A stretch of 64,000 nt of DNA from Mya arenaria (taxonomy: Eukaryota > Mollusca > Bivalvia > Myida > Myidae): the NCBI RefSeq assembly GCF_026914265.1, contig NC_069124.1:10743723-10807722 (forward strand), in the 5' to 3' direction. The position numbers and the translations under genes were made by a program. Below are positions 10,060 to 47,477 of this stretch, one piece after another. The first letter of the stretch is position 1, and every line of letters starts with the position of its first letter. The notes beneath the pieces are model-generated. The model was given only the letters and a program-made list of their open reading frames with translations. It ran no database searches and had not been told where the DNA came from.

Positions 10060-10840
10060 ATTTGTGTGACCATTTACTGTAGGTTATTGTGAACATCTTA
10101 GTCTAGGTTCGTGTGACCATCTACTGCAGGTTCGTTAGGCCATCTTGTCTAGGTTCGTTTGGCCATCTAGTCTAGGTTCGTGTAGCTTTCTGGTCTAGGT
10201 TCGGTTGGCCATCTCGTTTAGATTCGTGTGACCATCTTGTCTAGGTTCGTTTGGCCATCTGGTCTAGGTTCGTGAGACCATCTACAAAGTTTAGTCATCT
10301 AATCTAGGTTCGGTTGGCCATTTGTCTAGGTTCGTTTGGCCATCTGGTCTAGGTTCGTGAGACCATCTACAAAGTTTAGTCATCTTATCTAGGTTCGGTT
10401 GGCCATCTTGTCTAGGTTCGGTTGGCCATCTGGTCTAGGTTCGTGAGACCATCTACAACGTTAAGCTATCAAATCAAGGTTCGTTTGACCATCTAGTCAA
10501 GGCTTGTTTGGCCATCTAGTCTAGGCTCGTTTGGCCATCTAGTCTACGTTCAATTGGCCATCTAGTCTACGTTCGGTTTGCCATCTTATTTAGGTTCGTT
10601 TGGCCTTGTAGTTTAGTTTCGTTTGTCCACCTAGTTTAAGTTCGTGTGATCATCTAGTCTAGGTTCTTAGTCTGGCTATTTAGTAATGTTGGCAATCAAG
10701 TCTATGTTATTTTGGCCATCAAGTCCCGGTGCGTGTGTCCATCTGGTCAAGATTTTTGTGCCGTTAAGGTTAGGTATTTTTTGGCCTTTAAGACTAGGTT
10801 CTTGTTGCCATCTATTCAATTGCATCCTAGCCGCTATCAG
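10060..10840. repeat. 23-bp minisatellite array, 3' of gene A
   Basis: About 33 imperfect units of a roughly 23-bp motif, consensus GTTTGGCCATCTAGTCTAGG plus TTC. Units drift at the right end (10,640-10,840). The same motif builds two further arrays at 34,290-35,575 and 42,445-42,925. Unlike those, this one shows no clear two-unit (46-bp) alternation. Confidence 0.88.
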
Positions 10841-17917: not shown

Positions 17918-18027
17918 ATTATGCTGGGTAATTTTCGCTATAAATTTAACTAATAACATGTCGATAATTCATCGTATTACTTACTCATTGCCACTGCCAC
18001 AGCTGTCGTGTTCGGTCGAAAGTGATA

Positions 18028-18669
18028 ATGCGTTTATTCAAACATATTGTAACAATTGTAAAAAGGAGTTTACCTTGGCTTGTTTTCTCCCTTGCGGTTG
18101 TGTGTGTGACTTTATTGTTTGAGACCAAATATACTTCAAATGTATATAAGGATTATACTGGCGGTACGGAAGTTGGCTTACAAACAAGAATAAGAAGGTT
18201 TTTGAAAAACATGCATAGTTCTATCTTCAGTTATAAATGTCAAATTGTCACTAAGACGAGAAATAATGCAGATTTAAGAATAATAGTCATAACTTACAAT
18301 AGAAGTAATGCTTTGATGAGACTTTTGGAGTCACTGAACAAGGCTGACTATGGAGGAAGTGCGGTTGTGTTAGAAGTGTGGATTGATCGCTTCAACTCTG
18401 AACAATATTCCATACAAACTGTGGACATCTTGTCTAAGTTTTATTTTGATGCAGGATTTTGTGATATTCATTTACATCCAACACACGTGGGATTAACAGG
18501 ACAATGGCTCCACGTAAGGTTTTATTTAAGTATTTATTATGGCATACAATTTATGCCCGGCTCTATGCCAGTTTATGTCAAACATATAAACGATAAGAGA
18601 AAGAACGGCATAGTGCCATTCCTTTGTTAGCGTGCTTATTTGATGTCAGTCTCTCGTAAAGTGTGAACT

Positions 18670-18795: not shown

Positions 18796-21700
18796 GTTGT
18801 TGCAAATTCTACAGTGCACATGACAACATTGACTTTAACAATGCTATTATGTTTTGTTTTGGAAAATTGTAACATTCTCTGTACTAAACTCTGTCCTAAG
18901 TACTGTCGATCAGTAGACTGATTCTTAACGCTGGCCTTTACACGCTTTTTAAGGCTTTCATTACTTTTCTTTTTCAAAAGCCATGTTCATATATTTTAAC
19001 AATTATTTCAACTACTTCACAAGTAAGTACACATTTCCGTGCAATTAACGGCGTCGAATAAACTTTAGTACAAATTTGCCAATCCTAAAAACAAAGTTAA
19101 TATTAACATGAACATATAACTTGCCAGTTTGAACACATGCAGCAAGATCCATAACTTTTTGTTTAATTTATTTCGAGTTTTGCCACTTGACCAACCGAAA
19201 TACTTACACCTGCCTGCGATAATTGTATTGCTTCCATTAAAGGTTTTATTGAAGTTTCTGACTGTTCATGGGTCACCATTAAAGCTTGTTTTGTTTATGC
19301 TCTACGGATTTAATATGATGCCCGTACCCTGGGAGTACTTCTTGGAATACCGCATATTAATATGTAATGTTGTTATGATGAATACCAAGTATAATTTCTT
19401 GGCTACTTATTGGACTTTTTGTTTCGTATATTTAAGGAATGAATTGCGGGGTTGATGTCATTATCGGGGTATGAACGCAATTGGGTTGGTCAATGTGTGT
19501 GGAGTCCGAAGGACTCCATGCGTACTTTGACCAACCCAATTGCGTTCATATCCCCGATAATGACATCAACCCCGCAATTCATTCCTTATATTTACACCAA
19601 TAGTTCATTATTTCATTCAAGAATTGTTAAAAAAATACTTCATTTCATTTAAGAAAACCTTTCAGTAATCCGTTCTTACCTATTCTGTAAATAGAACGAC
19701 CCGACTATAACCGGAAACATTCTTTTCAAATGACGTCACAATAACGCGGGAAAAGATCAACCACTTGAAATCACTTGAAAACGTAAAATTGAAACCCTTC
19801 TGGTACCAATATATTTAAAATATAATAAACTCACACTTTTAAAAATGTTGATCTATATTTTACGGGACCTGCAGACACAATACAACCAATAACAAGATCA
19901 ATAGCTTTCATGTATATTGTTATGCAATGAATTGCGATCCGAACATATCCGAAGATGTTGCGTTCATCGATTGATGAACGCAATTGCCAAAAGGCAGTTC
20001 ATTTAAGGAATGGAAGTTGAGGTGTAAATATTACCAATTGGATTGGACTAAGTACATATCATTCACCGCTTGCATGGAATATTCAGTCGCAAAAAAGAGC
20101 ATGCAATGGATTCCATTCGATAAGAATGTTGTTGTTTTTTATGCCAAGAATAAATGCTTCTGCTTTTTGAACAAGCCATGTCTCGGATAAAATTTAAAAG
20201 TCTGTTATGTTCATAGTATTAGAATGTCTGTTGAATTATTGGAGTTTGGTCGACAATTTAGAGTCTGTTTTGTGTGTTCATGGTATAAAAATGTCTAGCA
20301 GTTTGCTGGAGTTTTGACAAACATCAAGAGTCTGTCTTAGCAGTCTTTATCAATCATTTCTATAGTTAATGGATAATACAATAGTATTGGATTCTCATGG
20401 TATTATAACGACTTGTCGTGTTAAAGGGTAAATAAACACAATAACTCTTGTTTTTATTTTGTAAAATAAAGTGTACAACGGATATATGTTTGATAAAACA
20501 GTATTCTACGACTATTGGTTAATGACAGACAATTTACATGTTTAAGATGTTCACAGATTTATTATTAGAAACAACTGCTTTTGTTCATTATGAACGACGC
20601 CAAACAGTAAAGTGCAACTAAAATCTCAAATTCAAATCTTTATTGAGTTATCTGCAATTGTTTGTAGCGAATTCAATTGGGAATGTAGACATTCATAGAA
20701 GTTTCGGGGCCAAAACGACGGTTTCCCGTCTATGTCCAATAACGTTTTTGCATTACTGGCTTAATGTCTGTATTTCAAACGAAGAATATTAAACTGTGAC
20801 AGTTTCGAGTAAAATATAATGATCATAAGTTACAGTGTATTTAACGATATCTCGTTAGTTACGACAGCTTGAAGACACTGGTAAAAATGCCCATTACAAT
20901 CAGATGAGAATAGCCTTACAATACTTGGTCGGATGGTCGAACATGCAACCTCTGGATTGACAGTATATTATCTTACCACCAAACCATGGATCCGCCGATA
21001 ATGATTTAATTTTACTTGATATGCATCAATATAATCTTTATTATGCACTGTGGTACATCGAATGCGATTAGAAAAAAATGCATTTGTTTGTGGACATTTT
21101 TGCGTGGAATATTTAATTGTTGATTTACATCTAGGGCAAAAAACACCATTTGGAAGTGACTATCCAGTGTTGCATATATTTTTTCTTTTCATTTACTCAT
21201 GACGGTGAGTCAAAGCATTGTTATACCATATGAGATCATTAGCTACTTGTCATCTTTTTGAAGCTGAATGGTTTGTTATTAAAATAAAGTATTGCTGATC
21301 ATTCTGGATCTACTTTATCCCCATTTTTAAATGTACTCGTTACTCGATTGCGTAACTGAATCGAATTTAAAAAAAACGTGTGTAGGGTTATTCTTTTCAG
21401 AACCCAAGTGAAAGTTTCATACCATATATGATGTTAAAGGTCATGAAACACTAGAAATAAGTCTTGTTTCGTGGACAAATCGGCCAGTTCACTATAGAAT
21501 ATAAAGGAAATAAATTTAGTGGTCTATGACCTTCCAAAATAATCTTATCTTGTATTTCAGACCTGGAAACCCAAGGACAAGGAAATTGCAGTGATTTTAG
21601 AAGATGACCTGACTGTGTCACCATACTTTTACAAATATCTGCGACTCATGTTTGACCTTTACGGTAATAGATCAGATGTCAGTGGGTTTACCTTGCAAGG

Positions 21701-24700
21701 TCAAAGTATCAAACACGACCCTTCGGCGGGAGGACAACTGGACATAGACCCTAAACACAAAGTATTCCTCTATCCCACACTTGGGACGTCAGGTTTTGCA
21801 CCGAATTTCCGCCAGTGGAAGCCATTCAAAGGTATATTTCATGTGGTTGTTTAAAGAATATTGCGTCGCGAATTTTGTTTTATTAGGACAGAACAGAACA
21901 GAAGTATTTTACCCTTGATCTTAAATTCGAAATTCACAAAAAAATAAGTATGCAAAATCGACCGTTTTGTTTTCAATATAATAGATACTTTCATTATCTT
22001 TGTGAACACGTCGTTTTATGCGCCACGTTTGACTTTTCTTTATATAACATAGAATGGTATTCTGTTTTCTCTAACGATTCAAGTAAGAAGATACGAAAGA
22101 CAAATCGGAAAAGCAAGCGAATAACAATAATGTTGCCATATTGATTTATATCGGAAATATTATCACAGATGTTTTAATAAATAGCTGTATAACATTTCCC
22201 TTTATATATTTATACTTTGTCGTGTTTGCCAAGGTAAAAGCGCAATATTAAACAATTTCTAAAGAAGATTCGTAATTATTTAGCTTCACAAATCATCATG
22301 AATTTTGTTGAATGTTTTATTGGGTTTCATCAGCCAAATATGTTACATTCATTATGGAGTTATAATCATATTAGCTTTATAGCATATTTCTTTATCTATT
22401 TTGTCTTTATTTGCCTCTATATGTAAAGTTTACATAACGACAGAGTAAATTTTTCATAGTCTTAATAACACGGCCTCTAAACGCCAGCTCCACCACTTTA
22501 CGGTGGTGCAAAGAAAATGAGCTGTTGACACTTCCGTGGTGGAGCTGTGCCCTATGTGTACATGAACAAACGGGAGTATGATTTATATTTTATTTGATAA
22601 TTTCATTTAACGGACATATTTCGAAAATCGGAGAATGTGGTACCGTGTAAGAACACTTCTACCGTAGGCTGGTTACTTTTTCGTTTCAATACTGTGCAAA
22701 CTGTGGTGCCAGGAGCTTTTCTCCCGAATCGGTCTTGTGCATATTTTGAGATCTGATTGTCTAGCAAGTACATTTCGGTGCTTACACACACCGTAAGAAC
22801 AATCTCACGCATGCAAACATAACTGTTATGTAAAGTACCTATGCCGGAACACAACAAAACTGATAAGCACTTCTTAAAAAGGAAAAATGCACATATTTAT
22901 AAAAGTGGTGGCGCTGTTGCCCTAGTGGTGGCGCTGTCGAGTAGTGGTGGCGCTATCGAGTATGTTTTGCGCTTGAAGTAATATAAAAAGTTGACGCTTT
23001 TGGATTGAATACAAAAGTTGCTATGTTTATCATTGTTTGTAATGCTGGTTATGCATACTACTTGTGGAAACAAAACTCTTCGCGAACGACCTTATCCTTA
23101 CTGAAAACTATTTCGAAAACGGCTAGGTGCTGTAACCATAGAACTATAAGTATCTATCATGTGTGTCCGGTTATGAGAGAGGTATTTTTGCATACTGGAC
23201 GTGGGTTTCCGGTCATTTGACCAGTGCTGTAAAAACGCATCATACACCACCATGTAAGATGAGTTACGCGCAACAACGCGCTACTTCTTATTTCTTTTAT
23301 CGTATGGTTTATGAAAAGTACATTATTTCATTTCAATAAAGCGCAATCATATATATTAGTATGTAATTAATTAAAATAGATAATGAATCATCGTAAAAAC
23401 GCGATTTAAATAGTTACTATTTGACATCAATAGTTATTTAAAATTACTGCGCTTTATGACGTCAGTAAATAACGTTTCACGCGCTTTTTGGTAAAATGTA
23501 CAAAAGTGCGTTTTCTACGTCAATTCTTCCACAAATTGCTAATTTAAGATATGCAAGAAAAAATATCAATCATGTTTTTCCGGTCCGGATCGAAAATTCC
23601 ACCCTTCGGTCACGCTGCGTGGCCGGTAAGTCGGCAAGCCTCGTTACCGGCTTATGCGCGTGCACTCGGGTGGGATTTTTCTATCCGTACCGGAAACACA
23701 TGATAGATACTTATAGTTCTATGGTTAAAATTAAAAGCACCTAGCCGTTTGTTTTCGAAATAGTTTTCAATAAGGTTAAGGTAGTTCGCGAAGAGTTTTG
23801 TTTCCGCAAGTAGTATGCTCAATGAATGATAAACATAGCAACTTTTGTATTCATTCCAAAAGCGTTAAATTTCAATATTACTTCAAGCGCAAAACATACT
23901 CGATAGCGCCACCACTACTCGACAGCGCCACCACTAGGGCAACAGCGCCACCACTTTTATAAATATGTGCATTTTTCCTTTTTAAGAAGTGCTTATCAGT
24001 TTTGTTGTGTTCCGGCATAGGTACTTTACATAATAGTTATGTTTGCATGCGTGAGATTGTTCTTACGGTGTGTGTAAGCACCGAAATGTACTTGCTAGGC
24101 AATCAGATCTCAAAATATGCACAAGACCGATTCGGGAGAAAAGCTCCTGGCACCACAGTTTGCACAGTATTGAAACGAAAAAGTAACCAGCCTAAGGTAG
24201 AAGTGTTCTTACACGGTACCACATTCTCCGATTTTCGAAATATGTCCGTTAAATGAAATTATCAAATAAAATATAAATCATACTCCCGTTTGTTCATGTA
24301 AACATAGTGCACAGCTCCACCACGGAAGTGTCGACAGCTCTTTTTCTTTGCACCACCGTAAAGTGGTGGAGCTGGTGTTTAGAGGCCGTGAATAATAAAA
24401 TGATGAATAAAACAGGGGAAAGCCCAGTAGTTGAACAAATATATATTCCCTGCTAAGGGGCACACGACAAGGGTCCAAACGACCATGAACTATAGACACA
24501 CACATATCAACATCGTATGCACAAACATATCAGCATCGTATACACAAACATATCAACATCGTATGCACAAACATATCAGCATCGTATACACAAACATATC
24601 AGCATCGTATACACAAACATATCAGCATCGTATGCACAAACATATCAGCATCGTATACACAAGCATATCAGCATCGTATACACAAACAAATCAGCATCGT

Positions 24701-27700
24701 ATACACAAACATATCAGCATCGTATACACAAACATATCAGCATCGTATACACAAACATATCATCATCGTATACACAAACATATCAGCATCGTTTACACAA
24801 ACATATCAGCATCGTAGACACACACATATCAGCATCGTATACACACACATATCAGCATCGTTTACACAAACATATAAGCATCGTATACACAAACATATCA
24901 GAATCGTATACACAAACATATCAGAATCGTATACACAAACATATCAGCATCGTAGACACAAACATATCAGCATCGTAGACACACACATATCAACATCGTA
25001 TACACAAACATATCAGCATCGTATACAAAAACATATCAGCATCGTATACACAAACATATCAGCATCGTATACACAAACATATTAACATCGTAGACACAAA
25101 CATACAAACGACCATTAACTATAGACACAAACATACAAACGACCATGAACTATAGACACAAACATATCAGCATCGTATACACAAATAAAAACACTAAAAA
25201 CAAACGTACACCACATACACAAATATAATCACCACAAACGAACAATACCCTCATCAAAATGGCCTTACCGTTAAATGATGGGATTACCGATTTGGAACGG
25301 TCTGTGAAACAAGAGTTCACTGAAGCTCGCATCTGCTGGGGGCTAAAACTTGTTAGTATGGCCATAACCTCACACTTCTCCCATTATATATCAATAACAC
25401 TTAAATTAAAATATATACGCCTTATCAAAGCACGCATCAACTTGAAAAGACTAGCGCAAAACTTAACATATAGACTGTTAAATTAATTTCAAATACTAAA
25501 CGACAGGATGCCAACATTACCTTTAAACGAAGAAATCAAGCCGAAGCTGATGGCGTTTAAGAGGTATAATAAAGTCATTTAAAGACAACTACCAGACATA
25601 ACTCGCCCTAACATGGTTGAAAATTATGTCTTCATTTAGTATTTTAGTGAAAGTATCATTGTACAGGCTAGGAGGAAAAAACAATGAAAATGTAATATGA
25701 TAATAAAAGTGTATAAGTGCTGTATAATATACTTCGGGAAGTAAAATCGAAAACATTACAGACAGTCTTTTATAAATGAGGCAGAAGCGTCAGTCAAAAC
25801 AGTCTTATCATTTAATTGAATAAGACATGCAGAGTTAACACAGTCCGATGAATAAGTTCCCATCATACCTAAAACAGAAAGAGTTTACACAGTCCGGAGA
25901 ATAAGTTTCCATTACACCTAACACAGATAGGATTTACACAGTCCTGAGGATAAGTACCCATCATACTTAACACAGATTGAGTTTACACAGTCCGAAGAAT
26001 AAGTACCCATCATGCCTAACACAGATTGAGTTTACACAGTCCGAAGAATAAGTACCCATCATGCCTAACACAGATTGAGTTTACACAGTCCGAAGAATAA
26101 GTACCCATCATGCCTAACACAGATTGAGTTTACACAGTCCGAAGAATAAGTACCCATCATGCCTAACACAGATTGAGTTTACACAGTCCGAAGAATAAGT
26201 ACCCATCATACCTAACACAGATTGAGTTTACACTGTCCGAAGAATAAGTACCCATCATGCCTAACACAGATTGAGTTTACACAGTCCGAAGAATAAGTAC
26301 CCATCATGCCTTCACAGATTGAGATTACACAGTCCGGAGAATAAGTACACATCATGCCTAACACATATTGAGTTTACACAGTCCGGAGAAGAAGTACCCA
26401 TCATGCCTACACAGATTGAGTTTACACAGTCCGGAGAATAAAACCCCATCATGCCTAACACAGATTGAGTTCACACAGTCCGGAGAATAAGTACCCATCA
26501 TGCCTAACACAGATTGAGTTTACACAGTCCGGAGAAGAAGTACCCATCATACCTAACACAGAGTGAGTTCACACAGTCCGGAGAATAATTACCCATCATG
26601 CCTAACACAGATTGAGTTTACACAGTCAGGAGAAGAAGTACCCATCATACCTAACACAGATTGAGTTTACACAGTCCGGAGAATAAGTACCCATCATGCC
26701 TAACACAGATTGAGTTTACACAGTCCGGAGAATAAGTACCCATCATGCCTACACAGATTGAGTTTACACAGTCCGGAGAATAAAACCCCATCATGCCTAA
26801 CACAGATTGAGTTTACACAGTCCGGAGAAGAAGTACCCATCATGCCTACACAGATTGAGTTTACACAGTCCGGAGAATAAGAACCTATCATACCTTACAC
26901 AAATAGAGTTTGTATAGTGCGGAGAACGAGTTCCCATCAAACTTAACATAGATATAGTTAGCGAAGTCCGGGGAATGATGTCCTATCATACCTAACTTAT
27001 GGCGGAAAATAACAATACTATAAAAAGCATACACATCAACTCGTATTATTGGAGATACAACTGCTCAAATTTAATTCCAGAATGGCTAGCAGAATGTTTG
27101 ACTTTGGGGACGAAAGTACCTCTAGTTCCCAAACACAAATCGTCCATATGGTACCAGCAGTTCGAGGTGAGTGGAAGGACGGACACGATGTGGGAGATGG
27201 AATATCTGTATTACACCTGGAAACACAACCAGTACACGTTATATCCGAACTTTAAAGGTACTAAATTAGTAATACAGTATTGTTTCAAAATAAAGAAAAA
27301 ATTACATCACAGTGGATAATCGAGTCATAATATTCACGATGATAATGGAGCAGGTACAACACACAACTTACAGTGTCAGAAATTATTGCAAATGTTTGTG
27401 TGTGTGTGTGTGTGTGTGCGTGCGCGCGCGTGCGTGCGTGCGTGCGTGCGTGCGTGTGTGTGTTTTAATTCAAAACACTTCAAAGCTGCACTCCCACAGA
27501 TTGAACGTTTTGACAACTTTTTATTGTTTGACTTGGAACGAGCCAATTTATGCGAAAATCATGGAAACCAGTAATAACAGACTGCTGACAAAATATCAGA
27601 TCGCAGATTTTCATATTTCAGTTAAAAAAATGATGTTTAATGCAATTTTCTTAAACTGATAGTAACGCTTTAAGCCATAAAACATTATTTTTCGAACTGA

Positions 27701-29987: not shown

Positions 29988-32060
29988 AGAAGAAGAAGAA
30001 GAAATTTTATTCAAGGAAATATAACACACAATATACATTTGAAATAGGCCAACATGACCCGTGATCAAATTTATCGAATACAATAGCTTACGTATAAAAA
30101 TTCAAAATTCAAATAGCGAACAAGTAAACAAGTATAATTGTATCAAATAAATAGCAGCTGTACAGTTTGATATACATATCTTAAATACATAAATTATCTT
30201 AACTATGAAATATTATATTTATGTCATAGTATTAACAACAGTGTCTACAAAATACAATTATACAACATGCATATGATATGTATTAAAATTGAAGTTTAAT
30301 TATTTTACAAAAGATACTACTTGTGCGTTATATTCTTAGAAGTACAAACGTGTCTAACTTAAATGAATATGTCCCATTCCCACCCCCACTAAAAGAGCGA
30401 AAACGAAATATTAGGAGGGTTTACAGGGTAATATGTCGATCTTAGTATTGTTTTGCTTACCAAATAAAATGCATTGTGATTTCAAAGAAAATGTTATACA
30501 GCTGAAAGCACACATAGTTTCTACTCATTAGAAATCTTTACGTGAACATACGTTTTCCTTATTTCATATGCATTAAATATATATACAGCTAAATTTTTTA
30601 AGATGTTTGCATTTTCAGACTTTAGCAACAAAACTGCCTTATACATGCTCGGTCTCTCCCTATAATATTTCTTAATGTATTTACATCGTATGTCGTTGTA
30701 CAAAAGACATTCAAATAACAGGTGGTACTCATCTTCTAACTTATTGCATGCTCTACATAAGCGATCATTTCTAGAAATATTTGTCCATCTTCCAGTCTCA
30801 ACCGAGAGCCGGTGTGATGATAATCGTAATTTAGTTAATGCTATTTTATATTTATTAATGTTTACATTCTTCAAATATGACTGAAACTCAAAATTTGCAA
30901 ACACTTTATAGAACGACGCTCTAATTAAGTTTTCTAGTCTGCTGTACCAATTTTGGATAAAGATATCCTTTACTCGACGCTGAAAAATACTGATAAATGT
31001 TTTTGTGTTCCCCACCCCTTGGGCAATCCAGACTTCATGAAAACCATAATTGCACAACATATTTTTAACATTTACTGCCCAATTAATTTTTCTTGGGTTA
31101 TTTTCAATTTCATTTAACATCGTTTTATACATAACCTTTGAATACTTTCTGTCACAGCAATCTACTATTTTGAACCAGTATTTTAAAATGTACGTCAATC
31201 GCATAGAAAACAAATGTATTCTTCCTAATTCACCATATACGAAATCATTTTGTGTCGAAGTTTTAACCCCTAATAAGTTCTTACAAAATAGTGTATGAAT
31301 TCTTTCTATATTGTTGTCACTGGAAAATCCCCAGACCTCACAACCATAAAATAAGATTAGCTTAACTAATTTATCAAATAGATCTAACACATGTTCAGTT
31401 GATATGTTGGCAAAACTCTGAAGATACCTTTTTAGTTTAAAAATAGCCTTATTTGCCTGACCTGATAGTGTTTTATAACATTCCATAAAAGAGCCCCCAG
31501 ATGTGAAAACAATACCTAAATAACAATATCTTGATACAACATCTATTTCTGAGTCTCCATAATGGAATTTCAAATTTTGAGGTAGTCTATCGCCTTTCCT
31601 AAATACAACAACTTTAGTCTTATCCTTATTTACAGATAGCTTCCATCTGTTATAGTAGTCATGTAAAATGTTTAAATTACGTTGCATTTCTTCACTTGTT
31701 TTGGCAAATATTACAATATCATCTGCATACATCAATAGAAATAACTTGATTGTATCAATATCTTTTCCTTTGGCTCCATTCAAAAATAATTCATCTTCTA
31801 AGTCATTTAGGTACATAGAAAAAATAAACGGGCTTAAACATTCCCCTTGACGAACACCAAGAAAACTTTCAAACAATTCACCAGTTTCTCCAAAAAGCTT
31901 CACTTTTGTTTTGACACTACTATATATACCTTTTATAACATTAAAAAGTTTTCCTCGAAGACCAGCAAACCAATAATAAGATGTTCTTATAACTATACTA
32001 ACGATGCCTTTAGATAACACCATTTTGAAATCGAAACACCACATATTAAAGGGAAATAGT
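29988..32060 (-). mobile_element. 5'-truncated LINE with reverse transcriptase
   Basis: A 507-residue frame (30,521-32,044, minus strand) holds reverse transcriptase blocks GVRQGECLSPFIFSMYLNDL, the catalytic YADDIVIFA, then LSVNKDKTKVVVF and YCYLGI. After it come LILFYGCEVWG and a C-terminal Cys/His cluster CRACNKLEDEYHLLFEC. The endonuclease and first RT blocks are missing, so the copy is 5'-truncated. After the stop come about 500 bp of 3' untranslated sequence ending in AATAAAATTTC and a (TTC)n tail at 29,988-30,003, as expected at a LINE 3' end. The long intact frame suggests a fairly young insertion. Clade (CR1/Jockey/RTE-X type) is not resolved. Confidence 0.88.
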
Positions 32061-34289: not shown

Positions 34290-35575
34290 GTGGCCATGTA
34301 ATGTTGGTTATCCTGGTTATCTAGTCTTGGTTTGTATGGCTATCTAGTCTAGGTTATAGTAGCCATCTAGTATAGATTCGTGTGGCTATCTAGTCTTGGT
34401 TTGTATGGCTATCTAGTCTAGGTTATTGTAGCCATCTAGTATAGATTCGTGTGGCTATCTAGTCTTGGTTTGTATGGCTATCTAGTCTAGGTTATTGTAG
34501 CCATCTAGTATAGATTCGTGTGGCTATCTAGTCTAGGTTCGTGGGGCTATATTGTCTAGGTTATTGTAGCCATCTGGTCTAGGTTTGTGTAGCTATCTAG
34601 TCAAGGTAATGGTAGCAACTAGTCTAGGCTCGTGTGTCTATCTAGTCTAGGTTATTGAAGCCATCTGGTCTAGGTTAGTGTGGCTATCTAGTCTTGGTCA
34701 TTGTAGCCATCTAGTCTAGGTTCGTGTGTCTATCTAGTCTAGGTTATTGTAGCTATCTAGACTAGGTTCGTGTGGCTATCTAGTCTAGGTCATTGTAGCT
34801 ATCTAGTCTAGGTTCGTGTGTCTGTCTAGTCTAGGTTATTGTAGCCATCTAGTCTAGGTTCGTGTGGCTATCTAGTCTAGGTTATTGTAGCCGTCTAGTC
34901 TAGGTTCTTGTGGCTATCTAGTCTAGGTTATTGTAGCCATCTAGTCTAGGTTCGTGTGGCTATCTAGTCTAGGTTATTGTAGCCATCTAGTCTATGTTAT
35001 TGTAGCCATCTAGTCTGGGTACGTGTGTCTATCTAGTCTAGGTTATTGTAGCCATTTAGTCTAGGTTGTTGTAGCCATCTAGCCTAGGTTCGTGTGGCTA
35101 TCTAGTCTAGGTTATTGTAGCCATCTAGTGTAGGTTGTTGTAGCCATCTAGCCTAGGTTCGTGTGGCTATCTAGTCTAGGTTATTGTATCCATCTAGTTT
35201 ATGCTCGTGTGTCTATCAAGTCTAGGTTATTGTAGCCATCTAGTCTAGGTTCATGTGGCTATCTAGTCTAGGTTCGTGTGACTATCTAGTCAAGGTCATT
35301 GTAGCCATCCAGTGTAGGTTCGTGTGGCTATCTAGTCTAGGTTCGTGAGGCTATCTAGTCTAGGTTATAGTAGCCATCTAGTCTAGGTTCGTGTTGCTAT
35401 CTTGTCTAGGTTATTGTAGCCATCTAGTCTAGGTTCGTGGGGCTATCTAGTCGTCTGGGTTATTGTAGCCATCTAGTCTAAGTTGGTGTGGCTATCTAGT
35501 CTAGGTTATTGTAGCCATCTAGTCTAGGTTCGTGGGAACACATAGTCTATGTTATTGTGGCCATCTAATACCGGT
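34290..35575. repeat. 23-bp minisatellite in 46-bp higher-order form, about 55 units
   Basis: Units of 23 bp alternate between GTGTGGCTATCTAGTCTAGG-type and ATTGTAGCCATCTAGTCTAGG-type, forming a 46-bp dimer over most of 1.3 kb. It stands upstream of the first IL-17-like gene. The matching array upstream of the second gene (42,445-42,925) shows the same two-type alternation, so the dimer existed before the segment duplicated. Confidence 0.93.
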
Positions 35576-36424: not shown

Positions 36425-38405
36425 TTGATGGCACAATTCGTTTCCAACCCTCGACTTGAAGCCACAAATCGTTTCCAACCCTCGTCTTGAAGTCACAATT
36501 CGTTTCTATCTCTCGACTTGAAGCCAAAAATCGTTTCTAACTTTTGACTTAAGTCACAATTCGATTCTATCAATCAACTTCAAGTCACAATTCGTTTCCA
36601 ACGCCCGACTTGAAGTCACAATTCGTCTCTATCCCTCAACTTCAAGTCACAATTCGTTTCTAACCCTCAACTTGAAGTCACAATTCGATTCTATCCCTCG
36701 ACTTGAAGTTACAATTCGTTTTTATCTTTTGACTTGAAGTCATAATTAGATTATATCCCTCAACTTGAAGTCACAATTCGTTTCTAACCCTCAACTTGAA
36801 GCCACAATTCGTTTCCAACCCTCGACTTGAAGTCACAATTCGTTTCCAACCCTCGACTTGAAGTCACAATTTGTTTCCAACCCTCGACTTGAAGCCACAA
36901 TTCGTTTCTATTCCTCAACTTGAAGTCACAATTTGTTCCCACCCCTTCCTTGAAGTCACAATTCGTTTCCAACCCTCGACTTGAAGCCACAATTTGTTTC
37001 CAACCCTCGACTTGAAGACACAATTCGTTTCCAACCCTCGACATGAAGTCACAATTCTTTTTCAACCCTCGACTTGAAGTCACAATTCATTTCGAACTCA
37101 CGTCCTGAAGACACAATTCGTTTCCAACCCTCGAGTTGAAGTCAAAATTCGTTTCCAACCCTCGACTTGAAGTCACAATTCGTTTCCAACCCTCGACTTG
37201 AAGTCACAATTCGTTTCCAACCCTCGACTTGAAGTCACAATTCGATTCGAACTCTCGTCCTGAAGTCACAATTCGTTTCCAAGCCTCGACTTGAAGTCAC
37301 AATTCGTTTCCAACCCTCGACTTGAAGCCACAATTCGTATCCAACTCTCGTCTTGAAGTCACAATTCGTTTCCAACCCTCGACTTGAAGTCACATTTCGT
37401 TTCGAACTCTCGTTCTGAAGTCACAATTCGTTTCCAAGCCTCGCCTTGAAGTCACAATTCGTTTCCAACCCTCGACTTGTAGTCACAATTCGTATCAAAC
37501 TCTCGTCTTGAAGTCACAATTCGTTTCCAACCCTCGACTTGAAGTCACAATTCGTTTCCAACCATCGACTTGAAGTCACAATTCGTTTCTATCCCTCGAC
37601 TTGAAGTCATAATTCGTTTCCAACCCTAGACTTGAAGTCACAACTCGTTTCTAACCCTCGACTTGAAGTCACAATTCGTTTCTAACCCTCGACTTGAAGT
37701 CACAATTCGTTTCTATCCCTCGACTTGATGTCACAATTCGTTTCCAACCATCGACTTGAAGCCACAACTCGTTTCTATCCCTCGACTTGAAGTCACAATT
37801 CGTTTCCAAGCCTCGTCTTGAAGTCACAATTCGTTTCCAAGCCTCGACTTGAAAACACAATTCGTTTCTAACCCTCGACTTAAAGTCACAACTCGTTTCT
37901 ATCCCTCGACTTGAAGCCACAATTCGTTTCCAATCCTCGTCTTGAAGCCACAACTCGTTTCTATCCCTCGACGTGAAGCCACATTTCGTTTCCAATCCTC
38001 GTCCTGTAGTCATAATTCGTTTCCAGCCCTCGACTTGAAGTCAAAATTCGTTTCCAATGCTCGACTTGAAGCCACATTTCGTTTCCAATCCTCGTCCTGT
38101 AGTCACAATTCGTTTCCAACCCTCGAATTGAAGCCGCAATTCGTTTCCAACCCTCGACTTGAAGTCACAATTCGTTTCCAATCCTCGTCTTGAAGCCACA
38201 TTTCGTTTCCAATCCTCGTCCTGTAGTCACAATTCGTTTCCAACCCTCGGCTTAAATCCACATTTCGTTTCCAATCCTCGTCCTGTAGTCACAATTCGTT
38301 TCCAACCCTCGACTTCAAGACTCAGTTCGTTTCCAACCCTCGAATAGAAGTCACAATTCGTTTTCAACCCTCGACTTGAATCCACAATTCGTTTCAATCC
38401 CTCAA
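36425..38405. repeat. 31-bp minisatellite, about 64 units
   Basis: Consensus unit CACAATTCGTTTCCAACCCT, then CGACTTGAAGT. Variants (CGTCTTGAAG, TCTATCCCTC, CGTCCTGTAG) are clustered, as in arrays grown by unequal exchange. Unit length 31 keeps both strands open over about 100 codons in places (for example 36,784-37,083 and 37,669-38,013 minus), which I reject as genes. The second IL-17-like unit has only about four units of it (43,178-43,305). Confidence 0.96.
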
Positions 38406-38409
38406 TTTG

Positions 38410-38824
38410 TTTAAATTCATCAGTGTTAAAAGTTTGCAGTTTTCAATACTTACATGTACATTCAAAACACAAGGGAAATTTACTTGGTCAGCTTTTGACC
38501 CCTGAAACACTTCCAACCCCAGGGATTTATCTGCTCCAGGGATCGGATCTAGACAACAGAATTGCTGTTTACATCGATCCCTTAGGTGTTTCCGCCTCCC
38601 CCGTAAAATAAACTTGTCTATATCTGCCGAATAACTTCTTTATTAAGCTGCTTTATTTTAAGACCAATTCTTAAACTCGTCCACTTTTTTTCTGCTTTAC
38701 AAAAATAAACTTCTTAATACAAGCTTCTTCGAGCAAATGAATATCGTATAATAACAATATGTGGCTGACATTGAAGAGTTCAAATTATCGTTAACTAACC
38801 AATAAAGTTATTTGTTTCAATATA

Positions 38825-38884
<60 letters not shown>

Positions 38885-39590
38885 GTAATTTTAACCCGAA
38901 GAGCGATCGTACGATACAGTAACGTTGATGAGATTGGTAGTATAAAGTTATTTGCATGCGAATAAGGAAGTCAAATCGTATGGTACATTTTGCATCATCA
39001 AACATGCAAAAAAAATGCAAAGGGTTGATGTTTCTTTTTCAAAAGTCCTGAAACTAAGTACAATTAAACAAACGTGCTTTCATTAACTGTTTATCTCCAG
39101 TTTTCCAGAAAGGTCCTGTTTGTTTTTCCAAGTGTCTTGAGTGCTAAAAGGAACTCCTATTTTAATAAATGATGTAAAAGATGACGATAAACTACTTAAA
39201 GGCATGCCAGTTCATTTGCTTATGCGGCGGAAATGTATGAAGTATTAAAACCAAGAATCAAGGTAGTTCCATGGCTCTTGCTTTAAAACTTGAGATACTT
39301 AAACACAAAATTGCATACTCAATATGCCATATTTTTGATAAAGTCTAAATAGTCTAAAAGCTTTGTTTACCGCAGCCGTTTTGAACTTTCAACCCTATTG
39401 CGACTTTAACTATTTATTAATCAGACAACATTCAGACATGACTAACGGATGTAATAATGAGACATATTAAGCAACAGTGAGCTATATAAATCATGGTATC
39501 AATCTTTAAACCCGTTGTCCTTAAGAATAAAAAGGGAAACGGATACAATTCAATTTGATATCAATTGATACATCCGACGTAAGTCCGGCC
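38410..39590. other. Upstream region of IL-17-like gene 1, duplicated at 43,310-44,530
   Basis: The interval is alignable by eye with 43,310-44,530 (CAACCCCAG...GGATCGGAT, AAGGCATGC..GTTCATTTGCTTATGCGG, CAATCTTTAAACCCGTT), in the same order. An (ATT)n run at 38,827-38,883 is specific to this copy. Frames inside (38,423-38,611 here, 43,403-43,759 there) do not agree with each other, so they are unlikely to be genes. Confidence 0.7.
38827..38883. repeat. (ATT)n microsatellite
   Basis: About 19 triplets, absent from the equivalent place near 43,830 in the second duplicated unit. Confidence 0.97.
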
Positions 39591-39591
39591 C

Positions 39592-39600
39592 TATATAAAT
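39592..39600 (+). promoter_or_regulatory. TATA box of IL-17-like gene 1
   Basis: TATATAAAT stands 64 bases before the ATG in CCCTATATAAATATCCGGCT, about 30 bases before a conserved ACACAGTGGCCAGTTATCAG that could hold the start site. The second gene has the same flanks, but with a 12-bp (GTAT/GTGT) insertion inside the box. Confidence 0.6.
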
Positions 39601-39663
39601 ATCCGGCTCAATAATATAATAAAACACAGTGGCCAGTTATCAGTGTAGCAGCCATTAGCCACC

Positions 39664-40175
39664 ATGTCGTTAGTGTCAGTCACCCTACTGGTAGTGCTCG
39701 TTACAATAAGTGCCCATGTGCACGATTCGTTGCCAGATCGGGAATGTCCAGGGGTGCCGGAGAAGTTTGCGCACATTCAAGAGCAATATGAGAAGACCAT
39801 CGCAAATGTTGATGACAACAGGTAAGAGTTAAATTACGATCTGATGTGGCGAATAGTAGAGTTATACCTCGTTCTCAATGTTGCAGGCCGGTATTCATCG
39901 GCCATGATGTCAGCGTCACCTGTCCAAGTCCTTCGTCCGCAGCCGCATTTTTAAACGGAATTTTTCACAAAACATATACAGAAAAATCATTTAAAGTAGA
40001 AATAATACCTCATAATGATGATAAAGTAATTTTATATTTCATTTTTTGTCCACATTTACAGATGCAAATGTCTGATATGCAATCATAAAATGAGGTTTAT
40101 TAAAAAAAGAGTTTCCATGTAGGAAAACGTTCAAGCAATTGAGATTACAGATTGGAGGCACGAGCGGACGCAAAC

Positions 40176-40208
<33 letters not shown>

Positions 40209-40463
40209 CCCCTACATTATTTTGGTAGTGGGTATAGAGGTGTTATCGTATGCTTCGTACAACTTGAACACGGCTATTAAGTGCATACAAACATCTTAGT
40301 ACTAAGTATGTACAAAAAAAAATATTATATACGATGTGGTCTATATTTGTCGTTCTTATTGCAGTTTTGCTTTCCTTGTAATGATTCTGTTAATATATCT
40401 GTTAATCGATGATGATGATGATGATGATGGTGATGACGATGGTGTCGATAAGGATGATGATGG

Positions 40464-40506
<43 letters not shown>

Positions 40507-41093
40507 ATTTTCAGCAATGCGCTATGTCCCTGGGAAACTGCGTACAACACTGACTACTACCGCGTCCCCTGCAGAATACAATATGCAGTGTGCGTAACTC
40601 GGCACACCTGCAACTTTACATTCGAGAATCCAGTGCGTCCGGGGATCATCAACCGCTTACGGGCTGAGACTAAGTGTACAGAAGTATACAGAAGTATGTA
40701 AAGTTACCTAATTTTATCTCAAAGTCATAATTGGGTTTAAATCAAATGCGATGTATGCTCTCGCTTTGACAAGGTGTTGCTGCCTGCTGGTGTCGTACTC
40801 ATATTTATACATTGTAACTCATTTGTACAAATTATAAGAAACACATTGGAAGGAATTAAAAAAAAATAATGTATTAAATGGTGTTTGATTTTCAAACTTT
40901 CTGGTGTTTATTTTTCAAAAATGGATGTACTTGATTTTCAGGCTTCCGGGTGGTATATCACTATGACGACTTTTTCCCATGGGAGACGACAGAGGATTTC
41001 GCAGTAGCCTGTATCTGCGAAAAAAGATGGTATAGAGGTCTAATAAATATATATGAACTATTCCATGCCTACATAGAGCATAGCATAGTCTGA
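39664..41093 (+). CDS. IL-17-like secreted cytokine, gene 1 (3-4 exons)
   Basis: Exons are 39,664-39,821, 40,515-40,693 and 40,942 onward, with phases 2 and 1 matching and GT-AG introns. The signal peptide is about residues 1-18 (MSLVSVTLLVVLVTISAH). The mature part has ALCPWETAYNTDYYRVPCRI, then AVC, HTCNFT (an N-glycosylation site), KCTEVYRS, and near the end FAVACICEKRW. The CPW start, the R-P-x-I-x-A-x-C block and the closing V-x-C-x-C are the IL-17 family cystine-knot pattern. Reading through exon 3 gives 162 aa to a TGA at 41,091. Alternatively a donor at 41,030 joins an acceptor at 42,260, conserved in both copies, making TGA at the junction and 141 aa ending CICEKR. Mollusc IL-17s act in innate immunity and are often multigene. 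Exact orthology is not claimed. Confidence 0.8.
40180..40207. repeat. (GA)n microsatellite
   Basis: About 14 GA units in intron 1 of IL-17-like gene 1, absent from the second copy. Confidence 0.9.
40407..40505. repeat. (GAT)n abutting the exon 2 splice acceptor
   Basis: About 100 bp of GAT/GGT triplets run to within 10 bases of the acceptor (GATATTTTCAG) of IL-17-like exon 2. The second copy has the same at 45,555-45,692. Because the run continues in frame into the exon, it yields a false polyD-fused open frame. Confidence 0.93.
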
Positions 41094-41099
41094 AATATA

Positions 41100-41890
41100 A
41101 ATGAGCAAATAACTATAATCGATATATCTAAAATAGTCCATGTCTGGGTAACGAACAGGGCGCTTATCAATATCAGAAAAAAATCCACGTATGCATCTTA
41201 TCAATATCTGAAAAAGTCCGCGTATGCTCGGAGATCAGAAGGCACGATTCCCAATGTGTTACTCCTTACGTATATCGATATTCAAATGCAATTGATTTGC
41301 CGTGCATTTTTGACTTATTAAAAAGACAATATGTCAAGTTGATTACCGCCTGTGCATTTGACCGGGTTAGATTAGATATATCATAATGATATGATTTTAT
41401 TTCCAAACATTCGTCATGTAATTTAGAACATGCGGATCCAAATACAGGTATATAATATCAAATCAAATCAATTATGTAGCAAATTAGTATCGTCCCAATG
41501 TTAAGACGTTGAAAAAAAAAGCCTGGAACACCTTAGCTTTAGAGGTATAATCAATGTTTCTTGCATCCCGAATAGGCATTTTCGGTGAATTTGACGTGCC
41601 GGAAATTTTAATCCGGTACACCCATTCCTGTTTAGTCACGTTGCTAACGCGGTGCGTCTGATTTATTTTACAAGTGCAATAGAACTCGGTCGAATATATA
41701 TTTCGACAAGGAAAGTATTCAGAAAATGAATGTCAATCGTTTTTTAAAAAAAAACGTGGTTTGAGATGAAACATTTGACGCTTGCATTATACTAAATTAG
41801 TACGTGTAATGACGTCAGGTAAATTATACAAAAAGATAAACGTCATTTGTACACAAATTTATAAATAAGGGCATGCAAGAAAAAAGAACA
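41100..41890. other. Region 3' of IL-17-like exon 3, no further gene seen
   Basis: Either an intron, if the fourth exon is real, or intergenic. About 550 bp of it, near 41,160-41,720, has no counterpart in the second unit. Confidence 0.45.
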
Positions 41891-41892
41891 TT

Positions 41893-41999
41893 CATGCGTT
41901 TCCTGTCTGGATAATATATTGCGAGCCTCGGGCACGCTGCATTACTGCAAAATTGACAAGCCTCGTTTCAGGCTTACGCAAGTGCCCTTGAAACGCATG
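41893..41999. mobile_element. Hairpin element, copy 1
   Basis: Outer stem CATGCGTTTC / GAAACGCATG. Within it lie GGGCAC...GTGCCC and an inner CTGCAAA...TTTCAG stem around the loop word GACAAGCCTCGTT. The same architecture recurs at 46,333-46,466 and in the centre of the foldback element (23,571-23,702). Confidence 0.65.
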
Positions 42000-42260
42000 A
42001 TATATATTATCCGATACACACTCCCCGCATCAGATTTTGCGTTGACAATGTATCAGCCAGCTCACTTCGCCAATTCTTACTCACTTATAATTTACTTTAT
42101 GTCATCTAACTTTTACTTAATATGTAATAAAATCATTTAACGATTTACCTTCAATTCAACGATTATCCAACAAGTGCTTGTATTTATTCAGACAGCAAAC
42201 CCCTTTAACGTTATTAAATATACCATGCTTACAACTTATATAATGTTGCTCTTTTTTCAG

Positions 42261-42440
42261 ATCATGCAGATAAATACAGAACAGACCACTGAAAGTGCTG
42301 ATACATGTTCATCAATAAATAACATTTGTTTTAATATTTTTGTTGCATTTTAGTATTTTGACATGTTCATCAATAAATAGCAAACTTTATATACTTTTGT
42401 TGCATTTAAGTATCTTGACATGTTCATCAATAAATAACAA
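42261..42440 (+). other. Possible last exon and 3' UTR with triplicated polyA-signal unit
   Basis: A conserved acceptor (TTTTTTCAG|ATCATGCAGATAAATACAG) is followed by three tandem units of about 60 bp, each with GACATGTTCATCAATAAATA and TTTTGTTGCATTT. Each unit carries an AATAAA. The second IL-17-like copy has the same acceptor at 46,835 and one-and-a-half diverged units at 47,334-47,450, split from the exon by a MITE. Confidence 0.5.
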
Positions 42441-42444
42441 ACTA

Positions 42445-42925
42445 GTCTAAGTTCGTGTGGCCATCTACCCTGGGTTATTGTGGCCATCTAGTGTAGGTTC
42501 GTGTGGCCATCTACTCTGGGTTATTGTGGCCATCTAGTGTAGGTTCGTGTGGCCATCTACTCTGGGTAATGTGGTCATCTAGGGTCGGTTCGTGTGGCCA
42601 TCTACTCTGGGTTATTGTGGCCATCTAGTGTAGGTTCGTGTGGCCATCTAGTCTGGGTTATTGTGGCCATCTAGTGTAGGATCGTGTGGCCATCTACTCT
42701 GGGTTATTGTGGCCATCTAGTGTAGGTTCGTGTGGCCATCTACTCTGGGTTATTGTGGCCATCTAGTCTTGATTCATGTGGCCAGATAGTCTTGGTTAGT
42801 TTGATTATCTCGTCCAGGGTTCTTATAGGCATCTAGTTTAGTCTAGGATCGTGTGTTCACATAGGCTAGGTAATTGTGGCCATCTTATCTCGGTTTTGTG
42901 GCCATCTATCTATCATGTCAGCAAA
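42445..42925. repeat. 23/46-bp minisatellite, second duplicated unit, about 20 units
   Basis: Dimers of GTGTGGCCATCTACTCTGGG and TTATTGTGGCCATCTAGTGT type are highly uniform in the first 330 bp, then decay. Homologous to 34,290-35,575 but shorter and with its own shared variants (TCTGGG, GTGTAGG), so each array homogenised separately. Confidence 0.92.
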
Positions 42926-43177
42926 CATGTGTTTGATATATTAATATTTGTTACTCAAGTATAATTTAATTTTTTGTAGCACTGCGATATAATTTCAGGG
43001 TCTCGATAGCTTGAAGTATTTAAGTAAACTTAAAATAAAAATATTTAATTTATGTTTTTGATTCACGAAATACGAAATAATGTCTGAAGTATGTGCCCGA
43101 TTATTTATATATTTCATGTATCTATTTAGTCATATATCGAAGATGAAAGCCAAACGGTTCTAGTTGCGACTTTATTT

Positions 43178-43305
43178 GATGCCACAATTCATATCTATCA
43201 TTCGACTTGAAGTCACAATTCGTTTCTATCCCTCAACTAGAAGCCACAAATCGTATCAAATCTTCGTCTTGAAGTCACATTTTGTTTTGACCCCTCGATT
43301 TATTA
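43178..43305. repeat. 31-bp minisatellite remnant, about 4 units
   Basis: Units such as CGACTTGAAGTCACAATTCG plus TTTCTATCCCT match the large array at 36,425-38,405. They are flanked on both sides by sequence that also flanks that array (AGCCAAACGGTTCTAGTTGC before, CATCAGTGTTAAAAG after). Confidence 0.88.
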
Positions 43306-44615
43306 AACTCATCAGTGTTAAAAGCGACCTTTTTCATATTAAATGTACATTCAAAACGTGTTGTAAAGTTGTTTCAATGCCACCATATAGGTCCTAAACT
43401 GTGTGTCCCATGTATCTTTGATGCACGAAATACGACATAATGCGTGCAGGAAGTGCATAATTCTGATTTTACCATTCGTCAGACATGAAATGTTCGATAC
43501 AGATAATTATGGCATGTTGCCGATAGCATATGTCAACACCAGACCCTACCGGGGCGGTACAGCGGGCAGTATTGTGACAGGCCCTATGAGATCGCCAAAC
43601 GCGAAAAATGCTTGGTCAAATTTTGATTACTGGAACACCTCCAACCCCAGTATTATGGACAAATTTACGTTCTCTGGTGATCGGATTTATATCATGTTTA
43701 CATATATCCCCTGTGTGTTCCCCCTCCACCGGAAAATATTACTGTCTATAACTTTCTAATAACTTGCTTCCTTATTAAGTTAATTTTGTTTTATTTAAAG
43801 ACCAATTCTTTTACTCGTCAACTTGTCCATATATATATAACTACTAAGTGCTATCGATTTGAAAAGCGATCGTACGATAATAGATTGATAAGATGGGTAT
43901 TATAAAAAATATATGCCAGCGAATAAGGAAGTCATATCGTAGGATACATTTTTCATCAAACATGTAAAACAAATGCAAAAGATTGATGTTCCTTTTTAAA
44001 AATAATCCTTATACTATACTTGAACAATCGTACTTTCATTAAATTTTTATCTCCAGTTTTCAGAAATGTCCTGTTTTTCCAATTATCTTAAGTGTTTTGA
44101 TGGTGTAACAGATGGCTATGAACTACGTTAGACTCATTTAAAACATTCAATTAAAGGCATGCAAGGTCATTTGCTTATGCGGCCGAAACGTTTGAAGTAT
44201 CACAAAAAAATAAGATTCAAAGTTAAGTTCCATGGCTCTTGCTTTAATACTTTTTGAGATACTTTAACACAAAATTGGGCATACTCCATATGCCATATTT
44301 TTGATAACGTCTAAATAGAGAAAACACTTTGTTTACCGCAATTGTGTTTTAACTTCCATGCAACCCTTTTGGGACTTTAACTTTTAATCAGTAAACATTC
44401 AGACACGACTTACGGATGCAATAATCAGCCATATTAAGCATGGTGTCAATCTTTAAACCCGTTAAGAATAAAAAAGGAAACGGATACATTCAATTAAATA
44501 TCAATCGATATATCCGACGTTAGTCAGGCCCTATATGTATGTGTGTATATATATCCGGCTCCATAATATAATAAAACACAGTGGCCAGTTATCAGTGTAG
44601 CTACCATTAGCCACC

Positions 44616-45596
44616 ATGTCTTTAGTGTCGCTTACCATACTGGTAGTGCTCGTTACAATAAGTGCTCATGTGCACGATTCGTGGCCAGATCGGGAATGCC
44701 CGGGGGTGCCGGAGAAGTTTGCGCACATTCAAGAGCAATATGAGAAGACCATCGCAAATGTTGATGGCAACAGGTAAGAGTTAAATTACGATCTGATGTA
44801 TTTAGTATAGTTATACCTCGTTCTCAATGTGGCAGGCCGGTTTTCACCGGCCATGCTGTCAGCATCGGCTGTCCGCACCGTCGTTCGCATTTAAAAACTT
44901 TGTCCGCAAAAAATATACAAAAAAAATGCATTTTTTAGAAGAACATCTCATAAAAATGATTAAGTAACTTTTATAGTTTTTGTGTGTTTTTGTTTCCACA
45001 TTTACAGATGCAAAAGTCTGATATGCAATCATAAACTGGGGTTTAATAAAAAAATAGTGTCCATGTAGGAAAACGTTCAAGCAATTGTGTCATATAAAAA
45101 AAAATGTGTCGCCAAAATTGCAGTTCAGCGTCGTATCCACTGAGTCACGGCGAAGTTCTCTAAATGGATGACATATTTAAGCTATAGACCTACCTTGGTA
45201 ATATCACGTGATAACACCGACTAGCCGATCACGCATAAGGAATGAATTTTACCTGGTAGACATACCCAGTAATCTTTTTTTAATGGAAAAATACGAAATA
45301 ACTGCTAAACGTAAATAAATTGTAAACTATTTGGTACTTCAGTTAGTAAGTTTCAATGCATTGTACACATCGAAGCCAAGTTTATGTCAGTTTTCGACAA
45401 TTTTCTTTTTTTTTTCATTATTTTATTCGGAGTACAGCCCCTTTAAGTTCATACAAACATCTAACTTCTAAGTATGTACAAACAAATATTATATAAGATG
45501 TATTTATCGTTCTTATATTCATTGTAATGATTCTGTTAATAGATCTGTACATCGATGATGATGATGATAATGATGATGATGATGATGATGGTGGTT

Positions 45597-45658
<62 letters not shown>

Positions 45659-46105
45659 AATATCGATGATGATGCTGATGATGATGATGATATTTTCAGC
45701 AATGCGCTATGTCCCTGGGAAACTGCCTACAACACACGATTCGACCGCGTTCCCTGCAGGATACAATATGCAGAATGCAAAACTCTGCACGCATGCAATT
45801 TTAGAAGCAGGAATCCAAATGATTCACAAATCATCAATCGCTTACGGGCTGACTAAGTGTATAGAACTATACAGAAGTATGTAAAGTTACTTAATTTTAT
45901 CTCAAAGTCATAGTTGGATTTAAATCAAATTTGATGTATGTTTTATTCTAGCTCATAGTGCTATGGTGTTTGATTTTCAAACTTTCTGGTGTTTATTTTT
46001 CAAAAATTTATGTGATTGATTTTCAGACTTCCAGGTGGTATATCGCGAGGACGATGACGTTGAGACAGAGGAGTTCGCAGTAGCCTGTATCTGCGAAAAA
46101 CGATG
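44616..46105 (+). pseudogene. IL-17-like gene 2, frameshifted copy
   Basis: Exons corresponding to gene 1 are 44,616-44,773, 45,700-45,876 and 46,027-46,105 (or to a stop at 46,193). Splice sites and the signal peptide (MSLVSLTILVVLVTISAH) are kept. Exon 2 encodes ALCPWETAYNTRFDRVPCRI and the following Cys residues. It is 177 instead of 179 bp: two bases are missing near 45,853 (GCTGACTAAG versus GCTGAGACTAAG), so the frame meets TAA at 45,854. The product would be 104 residues, lacking the KC..VYRS strand and the closing VACICEK. Exon 3 itself remains open in its old frame, so the lesion is recent. A truncated, still secreted decoy is possible but less likely. A sequencing error at this point is another explanation. 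Confidence 0.75.
45555..45692. repeat. (GAT)n abutting the exon 2 acceptor, copy 2
   Basis: Longer than in gene 1 (about 138 versus 99 bp) and interrupted near the acceptor by TATCGATGATGATGCTG. It lies the same distance from the acceptor TATTTTCAG. Confidence 0.93.
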
Positions 46106-46332
46106 GTATAAAGGTCTAATTAATATATATGAACCATTCCATGCCTGCATAGAGCATAGCATAGTCTATAATATAAATAGAGCAAAAAAATAACTGTACA
46201 TTTGTAAATCATTTTAAAAAAACGTGATTTGAGATGAAATATTTGACGCTTTCATTGAACTAAAATTAATACGTTTAATGACGTCATTTGCACACAAATG
46301 TATAAATAAGGGTATGCAAGAAACAAGAACAT

Positions 46333-46466
46333 ACTTGCGTTCCTGTCTGGATAATATATTCCGAGCCTCCGGCACGCTGCATTGCTGCAAACTTGACAAG
46401 CCTCGTTTCAGGCTAACGCACGTGCCTTTGGCTCGGAATTATTCTTTCCGAATCAGAGACGCATGA
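46333..46466. mobile_element. Hairpin element, copy 2
   Basis: Stem words TCCGAGCCTCCGGCACG and CGTGCCTTTGGCTCGGAA enclose CTGCAAACTTGACAAGCCTC and GTTTCAG. It lies at the same relative place downstream of the IL-17-like gene as copy 1 (41,893-41,999), so it was carried by the segment duplication. The stem has diverged in matching pairs. Confidence 0.65.
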
Positions 46467-46848
46467 TAGATATTAGAATACAACCTACATTTTCAGCCAA
46501 TGAAATTGCAGATAGGCACTCATTATAAGTACAAGACTTTATCATTAAGAATTTCAACTTTCTGGGGGTATTTAAAGGTCCGTCCACTGCCACACATCCG
46601 ATACACACTCTCTGTGTCAAATATTGCGTCTACAATGTAACAGCCAGATCACTTCGCCAATTCTTAATCACTTTGAATTTACTTCATGGCATCTTACTAC
46701 TACTAAATATGTATTAAAACGAATGCTTTTATTTATTCTGACAGCAAATCCCTTTATCGTTATTATTTATCAACAGAGTTGTGCAAAGGGATATACCATG
46801 CTCACAACTAATATATTATTGCTCTTTTTATTTCAGATCACGCAGATA

Positions 46849-47333
46849 CAGTGTAATTATACCACGTAATAAATTACGTCATAAATGCACGTCGGAAGGC
46901 AATATTTTGCTTCTATTGAAGACTTAAAACACTGATAACTTTTTATTTTCTTTACCATTTTAAATGAAACTTAGCGCAGTCTACGCCGCTTACGGAGCCC
47001 CACCTTCGGTCTTTCACCAAAATTTGATTGAGGGTTTAGTTTCTTAAAACACTTCGACAAACCTTTTCACAATACGGCCGTCTGACTGAGCACTGTCAAA
47101 ACATTATTTTGGAAACAGTTTTGTCGAAGTGTATCATGAAACTAATGACCTCATCAAATTTTGGTAGTAAAACAAATGCGGGGCTCTTTCAGCGACATAG
47201 ACTGCCCTTTGTTTCGTTTAAAATGGTGTTGTAAATGAAAAGTTATCTTTGATTTAAGTCTTCAATTTAAACGATTTTTTGCCTTCCGGCGTAGCATATA
47301 TGACGTAATTTATCACGTGGTATACACACACTG
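46849..47333. mobile_element. 485-bp palindromic MITE, family 2, copy B
   Basis: Ends are CAGTGTAATTATACCACGTA and the complement of CAGTGTGTGTATACCACGTG. It is in inverse orientation to 17,432-17,917. AGATA flanks both sides (46,844-46,848 and 47,334-47,338). The paralogous, uninserted site is at 42,268-42,272, where GCAGATAAATACAG is continuous. This proves the borders and the 5-bp duplication. Confidence 0.93.
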
Positions 47334-47477
47334 AGATAAATACAGAACAGACCACCGAAAGTGCTGATACATGTTCATTAATATATTACAAACTTTGTAT
47401 ATTTTTGTTGCATTTTAGTATCTTGACATGTTAATCAATATAAAAAAAAACTTATAAACAAATATAAATATATATAT

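Follow-up and report, generated by a model that had tools for sequence, protein, structure and literature searches.

The 64,000-base window (the whole stretch of DNA analyzed here; 35.6% GC, no N), probably of invertebrate origin, contains two similar genes arranged in tandem on the + strand. The first is open from start to stop codon, while the second runs into a premature stop, and the question raised by this locus is what the second copy is: a disabled duplicate, one allele of a gene that is open elsewhere, a product of faulty assembly or the source of a shortened protein. We consider it quite probable that the pair arose by tandem duplication of a gene for a secreted IL-17-like cystine-knot protein of divergent sequence, with gene 1 open and gene 2 most likely null in this assembly.

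The two genes are built of three exons on a common plan, with a start-to-start distance of 4,952 bases. In gene 1, exon 1 (39664..39821) carries the start codon, a signal-peptide-like N-terminus and the beginning of the mature protein, as judged from its translation and from the donor that closes it. Within the IL-17-like domain, exon 2 (40515..40693) encodes the CPW motif along with five cysteines, as seen from its translation and from a match to the Pfam IL17 profile, and exon 3 (40942..41093) contributes by translation the CxC motif (here CIC) and the stop codon. The three exons are in phase, and the open product is 162 aa long. In gene 2, exon 1 (44616..44773) is 93.7% identical to its counterpart over 158 bp, a likeness that is not due to chance; exon 2 (45700..45876) was placed by alignment and by its own Pfam IL17 match ahead of the stop; and exon 3 lies at 46027..46193. 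The donors CAG/GTAAGA and GAA/GTATGT (a slash marks the exon end) and the TTTTCAG acceptors are identical in the two genes. The 5 kb spacing and the shared exon pattern claimed in an earlier note on this DNA are therefore borne out.

The similarity extends well past the coding sequence. Local comparison revealed blocks that span positions ~38,475-42,394 (the gene 1 unit) and ~43,603-47,459 (the gene 2 unit), the best of which is ~79% identical. Since these blocks reach beyond the exons, the pair reflects a segmental tandem duplication that took in upstream sequence, rather than a likeness limited to two exons. Past position 41,140, the copies were compared by local blocks; a single global alignment of that part gives a mismatch of 0.56 because of large insertions. 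Searches of the 64-kb window by blastn and tblastn with gene 1 as a query retrieved no convincing third copy. In each copy, GAT repeats (40408-40506 and 45554-45691) stop just 5′ of the acceptor of exon 2, and the frame of this exon is open backwards through the repeats, which would read as a run of aspartates.

When the full gene 1 product was compared with 24,736 Pfam models at E values up to 10, IL17 (PF06083) was the sole family matched, with an alignment covering profile positions 2-79 of 81 (17.1 bits, E 0.0075). Exon 2 of gene 1 by itself also matched IL17 (E 0.0064), as did the piece of gene 2 exon 2 located upstream of the stop (E 0.00073); exon 3 by itself matched no Pfam family in either copy. 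The earlier note had proposed a Pfam IL17 search with the spliced gene 1, and a match is indeed present, but it falls below the curated cut-off of 24 bits, which the mature part of gene 1 (17.8 bits) and the gene 2 exon 2 piece (20.3 bits) do not reach either. None of nine shuffled sequences with cysteines fixed in place matched IL17, and the one hit among them was to an unrelated family at E 0.62. A sequence search of solved structures found no IL-17; the few matches listed, none better than E 0.038, were to other proteins. A scan of viral contigs revealed no relatives, which is what one would expect of an animal gene.

Inspection by eye of the gene 1 protein is consistent with the profile match. 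The CPW motif, the further cysteines of exon 2 and the CIC of exon 3 fit published motifs; CPW is described as a recurrent motif of invertebrate IL-17 (PMC8353272), and the R.P..I...A.C and FAVACIC stretches resemble, also by eye, IL-17 motifs 1 and 2 as given in PMC4517768. The N-terminus is hydrophobic in both genes, by the same kind of judgment. Thus, the view that the pair is IL-17-like finds support in the only Pfam family matched, in the near-whole coverage of its profile and in a CPW and cysteine arrangement that fits the invertebrate pattern. Judged from its sequence, gene 1 can be taken with good confidence as IL-17-like, though the score set for curated membership is not attained.

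Alignment of gene 1 (CGGGCTGAGACTAAG) with gene 2 (CGGGCTGACTAAG) shows that gene 2 is one GA unit shorter near positions 45,850-45,853, and its frame therefore hits a TAA at 45854..45856 (+ strand), directly after the missing unit and 20 bases from the end of exon 2. Exons 1 and 3 of gene 2 are open. Read alone in the frame of gene 1, exon 3 contains no stop through CIC, which in gene 2 is located past the TAA, and its frame continues for 8 codons beyond the position of the last residue of gene 1. Both the two-base loss with an immediate stop and the clean third exon had been claimed before, and we find both. Rescue of gene 2 by splicing at a GT donor was considered and rejected: ahead of the stop, exon 2 has just two GT sites, and both are poor donors, with scores of 2/7 and 1/7 vs 6/7 and 4/7 for the donors in use.

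A simple history would lead to this arrangement. A tandem segmental duplication would have given rise to two copies of a small three-exon IL-17-like gene. For the gene 1 product we infer removal of the signal peptide, pairing of the cysteines of exons 2 and 3 in a folded domain, and secretion. Gene 2 would have lost one GA unit from a GAGA stretch, most simply via replication slippage, the direction of the change (a loss in gene 2 and not a gain in gene 1) being presumed. The stop would strip exon 3 from the product and, with it, the CxC cysteines required by the IL-17 knot. Because these cysteines are lost, the allele is most likely null, i.e., a pseudogene or a loss-of-function allele.

The gap may represent a null allele that segregates, with an open gene 2 in some individuals; we rate this as the best of the alternatives while tentative in itself. 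The lesion is simple and isolated, and high inter-individual variation is known for bivalve immune genes (PMC8353272), but Mytilus IL-17 isoforms are reported in the same work to be nearly all conserved across 16 genomes, and its authors regard the variability of IL-17 as seemingly distinct from presence/absence variation. This alternative also overlaps the main reading, a null gene 2 in this assembly, which needs no fixation; the sequence at hand is a single haploid one. Should the lesion be polymorphic, it would provide a natural comparison of gene doses for a cytokine of an invertebrate.

It is rather unlikely that the missing two bases reflect a fault of assembly or sequencing, with both genes intact. 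One small indel alone separates gene 2 from an open frame, no other coding lesion is present in its exons 1-3, and Ka/Ks between the copies is below 1, all of which would agree with an error; on the other side, the site differs as GAGA vs GA, with no long homopolymer, and the window has no N, which speaks weakly against it. By the usual rule for transcript decay, the distance from stop to junction that matters is 50-55 bases. A shortened secreted protein of ~104 residues, keeping the signal peptide and roughly the first five cysteines and serving as a decoy or antagonist, is very improbable. Exon 1 and the promoter-side sequence are well conserved between the copies, and the transcript, with 20 bases between its stop and the end of exon 2, could avoid decay provided that no exon follows exon 3; decay is expected instead if a fourth exon is present. 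A stable knot is unlikely in a product that lacks the CxC cysteines as well as the final strands of the domain. We agree with the earlier ranking of the decoy as the less likely reading. Equally slim are the chances that gene 2 works as a truncated IL-17-like protein tuning the signalling of the adjoining open copy, a protein that would be translated because no more than 20 bases separate the stop from the junction of exons 2 and 3.

We return to the reading of gene 2 as a null duplicate and to the time at which it was disabled. Among aligned noncoding positions, the share that differs between the copies is 11.3% for the upstream region, 12.0% for intron 2 and 24.8% for the 5′ part of intron 1, and the overall Ks is 0.26; very roughly, each copy has undergone 0.06-0.13 neutral changes per site since duplication. 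A rough model of the age of the lesion takes the indel rate from the flanks, assumes that 80% of indels are frame-shifting and treats the 395 coding bases of gene 2 as unconstrained. The probability of no further lesion under this model is 0.75, 0.56, 0.32, 0.18, 0.06 and 0.02 at 0.005, 0.01, 0.02, 0.03, 0.05 and 0.065 changes per site, respectively. The lesion is thus younger than the duplication, probably by a good margin. The earlier description of the loss as very recent exceeds the data and is weakly supported, given probabilities of 0.32, 0.18 and 0.06 at 0.02, 0.03 and 0.05 substitutions per site after the lesion, compared with the 0.06-0.13 or so that each copy has gathered after duplication.

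The Ka/Ks of gene 1 vs gene 2 is 0.49 overall, a value that describes the pair as a whole and not either copy alone; by exon it is 0.19 (exon 1), 0.63 (exon 2) and 0.57 (exon 3). Such values are expected if both copies remained coding genes through the greater part of the period after duplication. Divergence measured in 75-base steps is distributed unevenly: it amounts to 1-11% at positions 39,500-39,874 and around the exon 2 acceptor, rises to 19-27% over the rest of exon 2, and in exon 3 is 24% at the start and 7% in the later part. Exon 2 differs in 21 codons, and the residue is changed in 15 of them. It is more diverged than intron 2 plus the upstream region (33/153 vs 67/583, p 0.0021) but not more than the 5′ part of intron 1 (33/153 vs 135/545, p 0.45), both p values treating sites as independent and coming from comparisons picked after looking at the data. 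The synonymous sites of exon 2 are also raised in divergence. Out of 2000 bootstraps in each case, pN exceeded pS 258 times for exon 2, 276 times for exon 3 and 8 times when all codons were taken together.

Positive selection was considered as a cause of this pattern and is not shown, Ka/Ks being below 1 in every exon tested. Since exon 2 exceeds intron 2 and the upstream region but not intron 1, and since its synonymous sites are raised too, an uneven history, for example gene conversion around exon 1, is an equally good account. If exon 1 is constrained, the mature domain only loosely so, and gene conversion has acted as well, the uneven divergence would be accounted for.

Acceptor-like sites are located 3′ of both copies: TTTTCAG at 42,254-42,260 for gene 1 and ATTTCAG near 46,836 for gene 2. 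They might open a fourth exon, here a candidate: the acceptor-like site is strong in both copies, while the donor that such an exon would require at the end of gene 1 exon 3 is weak (2/7). In its 3′ part, the gene 2 unit carries a 485 bp foldback (MITE-like) insertion at 46849..47333 (no strand assigned), recognized by its inverted arms (40 nt at 88% and 184 nt at 75%) and by AGATA flanks on both sides; the gene 1 unit is uninterrupted at the corresponding place, near 42,271. The insertion would fall within the fourth exon of gene 2, if the candidate exon exists. A second foldback element extends from 17,432 to about 17,917, and its ends match those of the first (CAGTGT...TATACCACGT).

The pair fits a known kind, as IL-17 tandem arrays with pseudogenes have already been published for sea urchin (PMC5457136). 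Tandem IL-17 genes are reported within the expanded repertoires of mussel, scallop, octopus, sea urchin and acorn worm (PMC8353272), and 5 of 35 sea urchin IL-17 genes are given as pseudogenes with stops or frameshifts, or as truncated in the assembly (PMC5457136). With IL-17 of Mytilus galloprovincialis, as described in PMC8353272, the genes studied here share CPW, a cysteine framework ending in CxC, a short putatively secreted protein and an arrangement in tandem pairs. They differ in the strength of the profile match (E 0.0075 for gene 1 vs E 2.2e-12 and better among the Table 2 entries of that work considered here) and in having three coding exons in gene 1, whereas two are the commonest number in mussel. 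The sea urchin SpIL17 genes (PMC5457136) likewise form tandem arrays, have one to three exons and include some copies with premature stops or frameshifts; unlike those arrays, the present window holds only two copies, ~79% identical over their best block, and likely belongs to another phylum. A literature search for molluscan IL-17 pseudogenes returned, among the matches listed, no paper title on the subject. New here are the foldback insertion 3′ of gene 2 and the unevenness of the divergence, with high values over the mature domain as opposed to low ones in exon 1. The locus adds one more case of birth and death in the invertebrate IL-17 family, a pattern that is expected, and it does so with a pair in which one copy is disabled and the mature domains have diverged, while the signal-peptide exon and the regulatory side remain alike.

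Several other features were seen in the window. A 31-bp repeat array of ~64 copies (36425-38403) ends just upstream of the gene 1 unit, and a short piece of the same repeat is found upstream of gene 2 (43176-43279). A 23-bp minisatellite (TGGCCATCTAGTCTAGGTTCGTG-like) forms three separate arrays at 10064-10666, 34314-35534 and 42442-42800. On the - strand, an open frame of 512 residues at 30524-32059 encodes a reverse transcriptase domain (RVT_1, E 3.2e-17) and probably belongs to a LINE-type element. A second tandem duplication is located on the + strand, where 2770-3423, 4700-5104 and 7696-7986 correspond to 17968-18627, 21543-21851 and 26996-27316; by eye, these are three pairs of look-alike open stretches, perhaps of a glycosyltransferase, and one of the stretches has a weak Pfam GNT-I match (E 0.022, below the cut-off).
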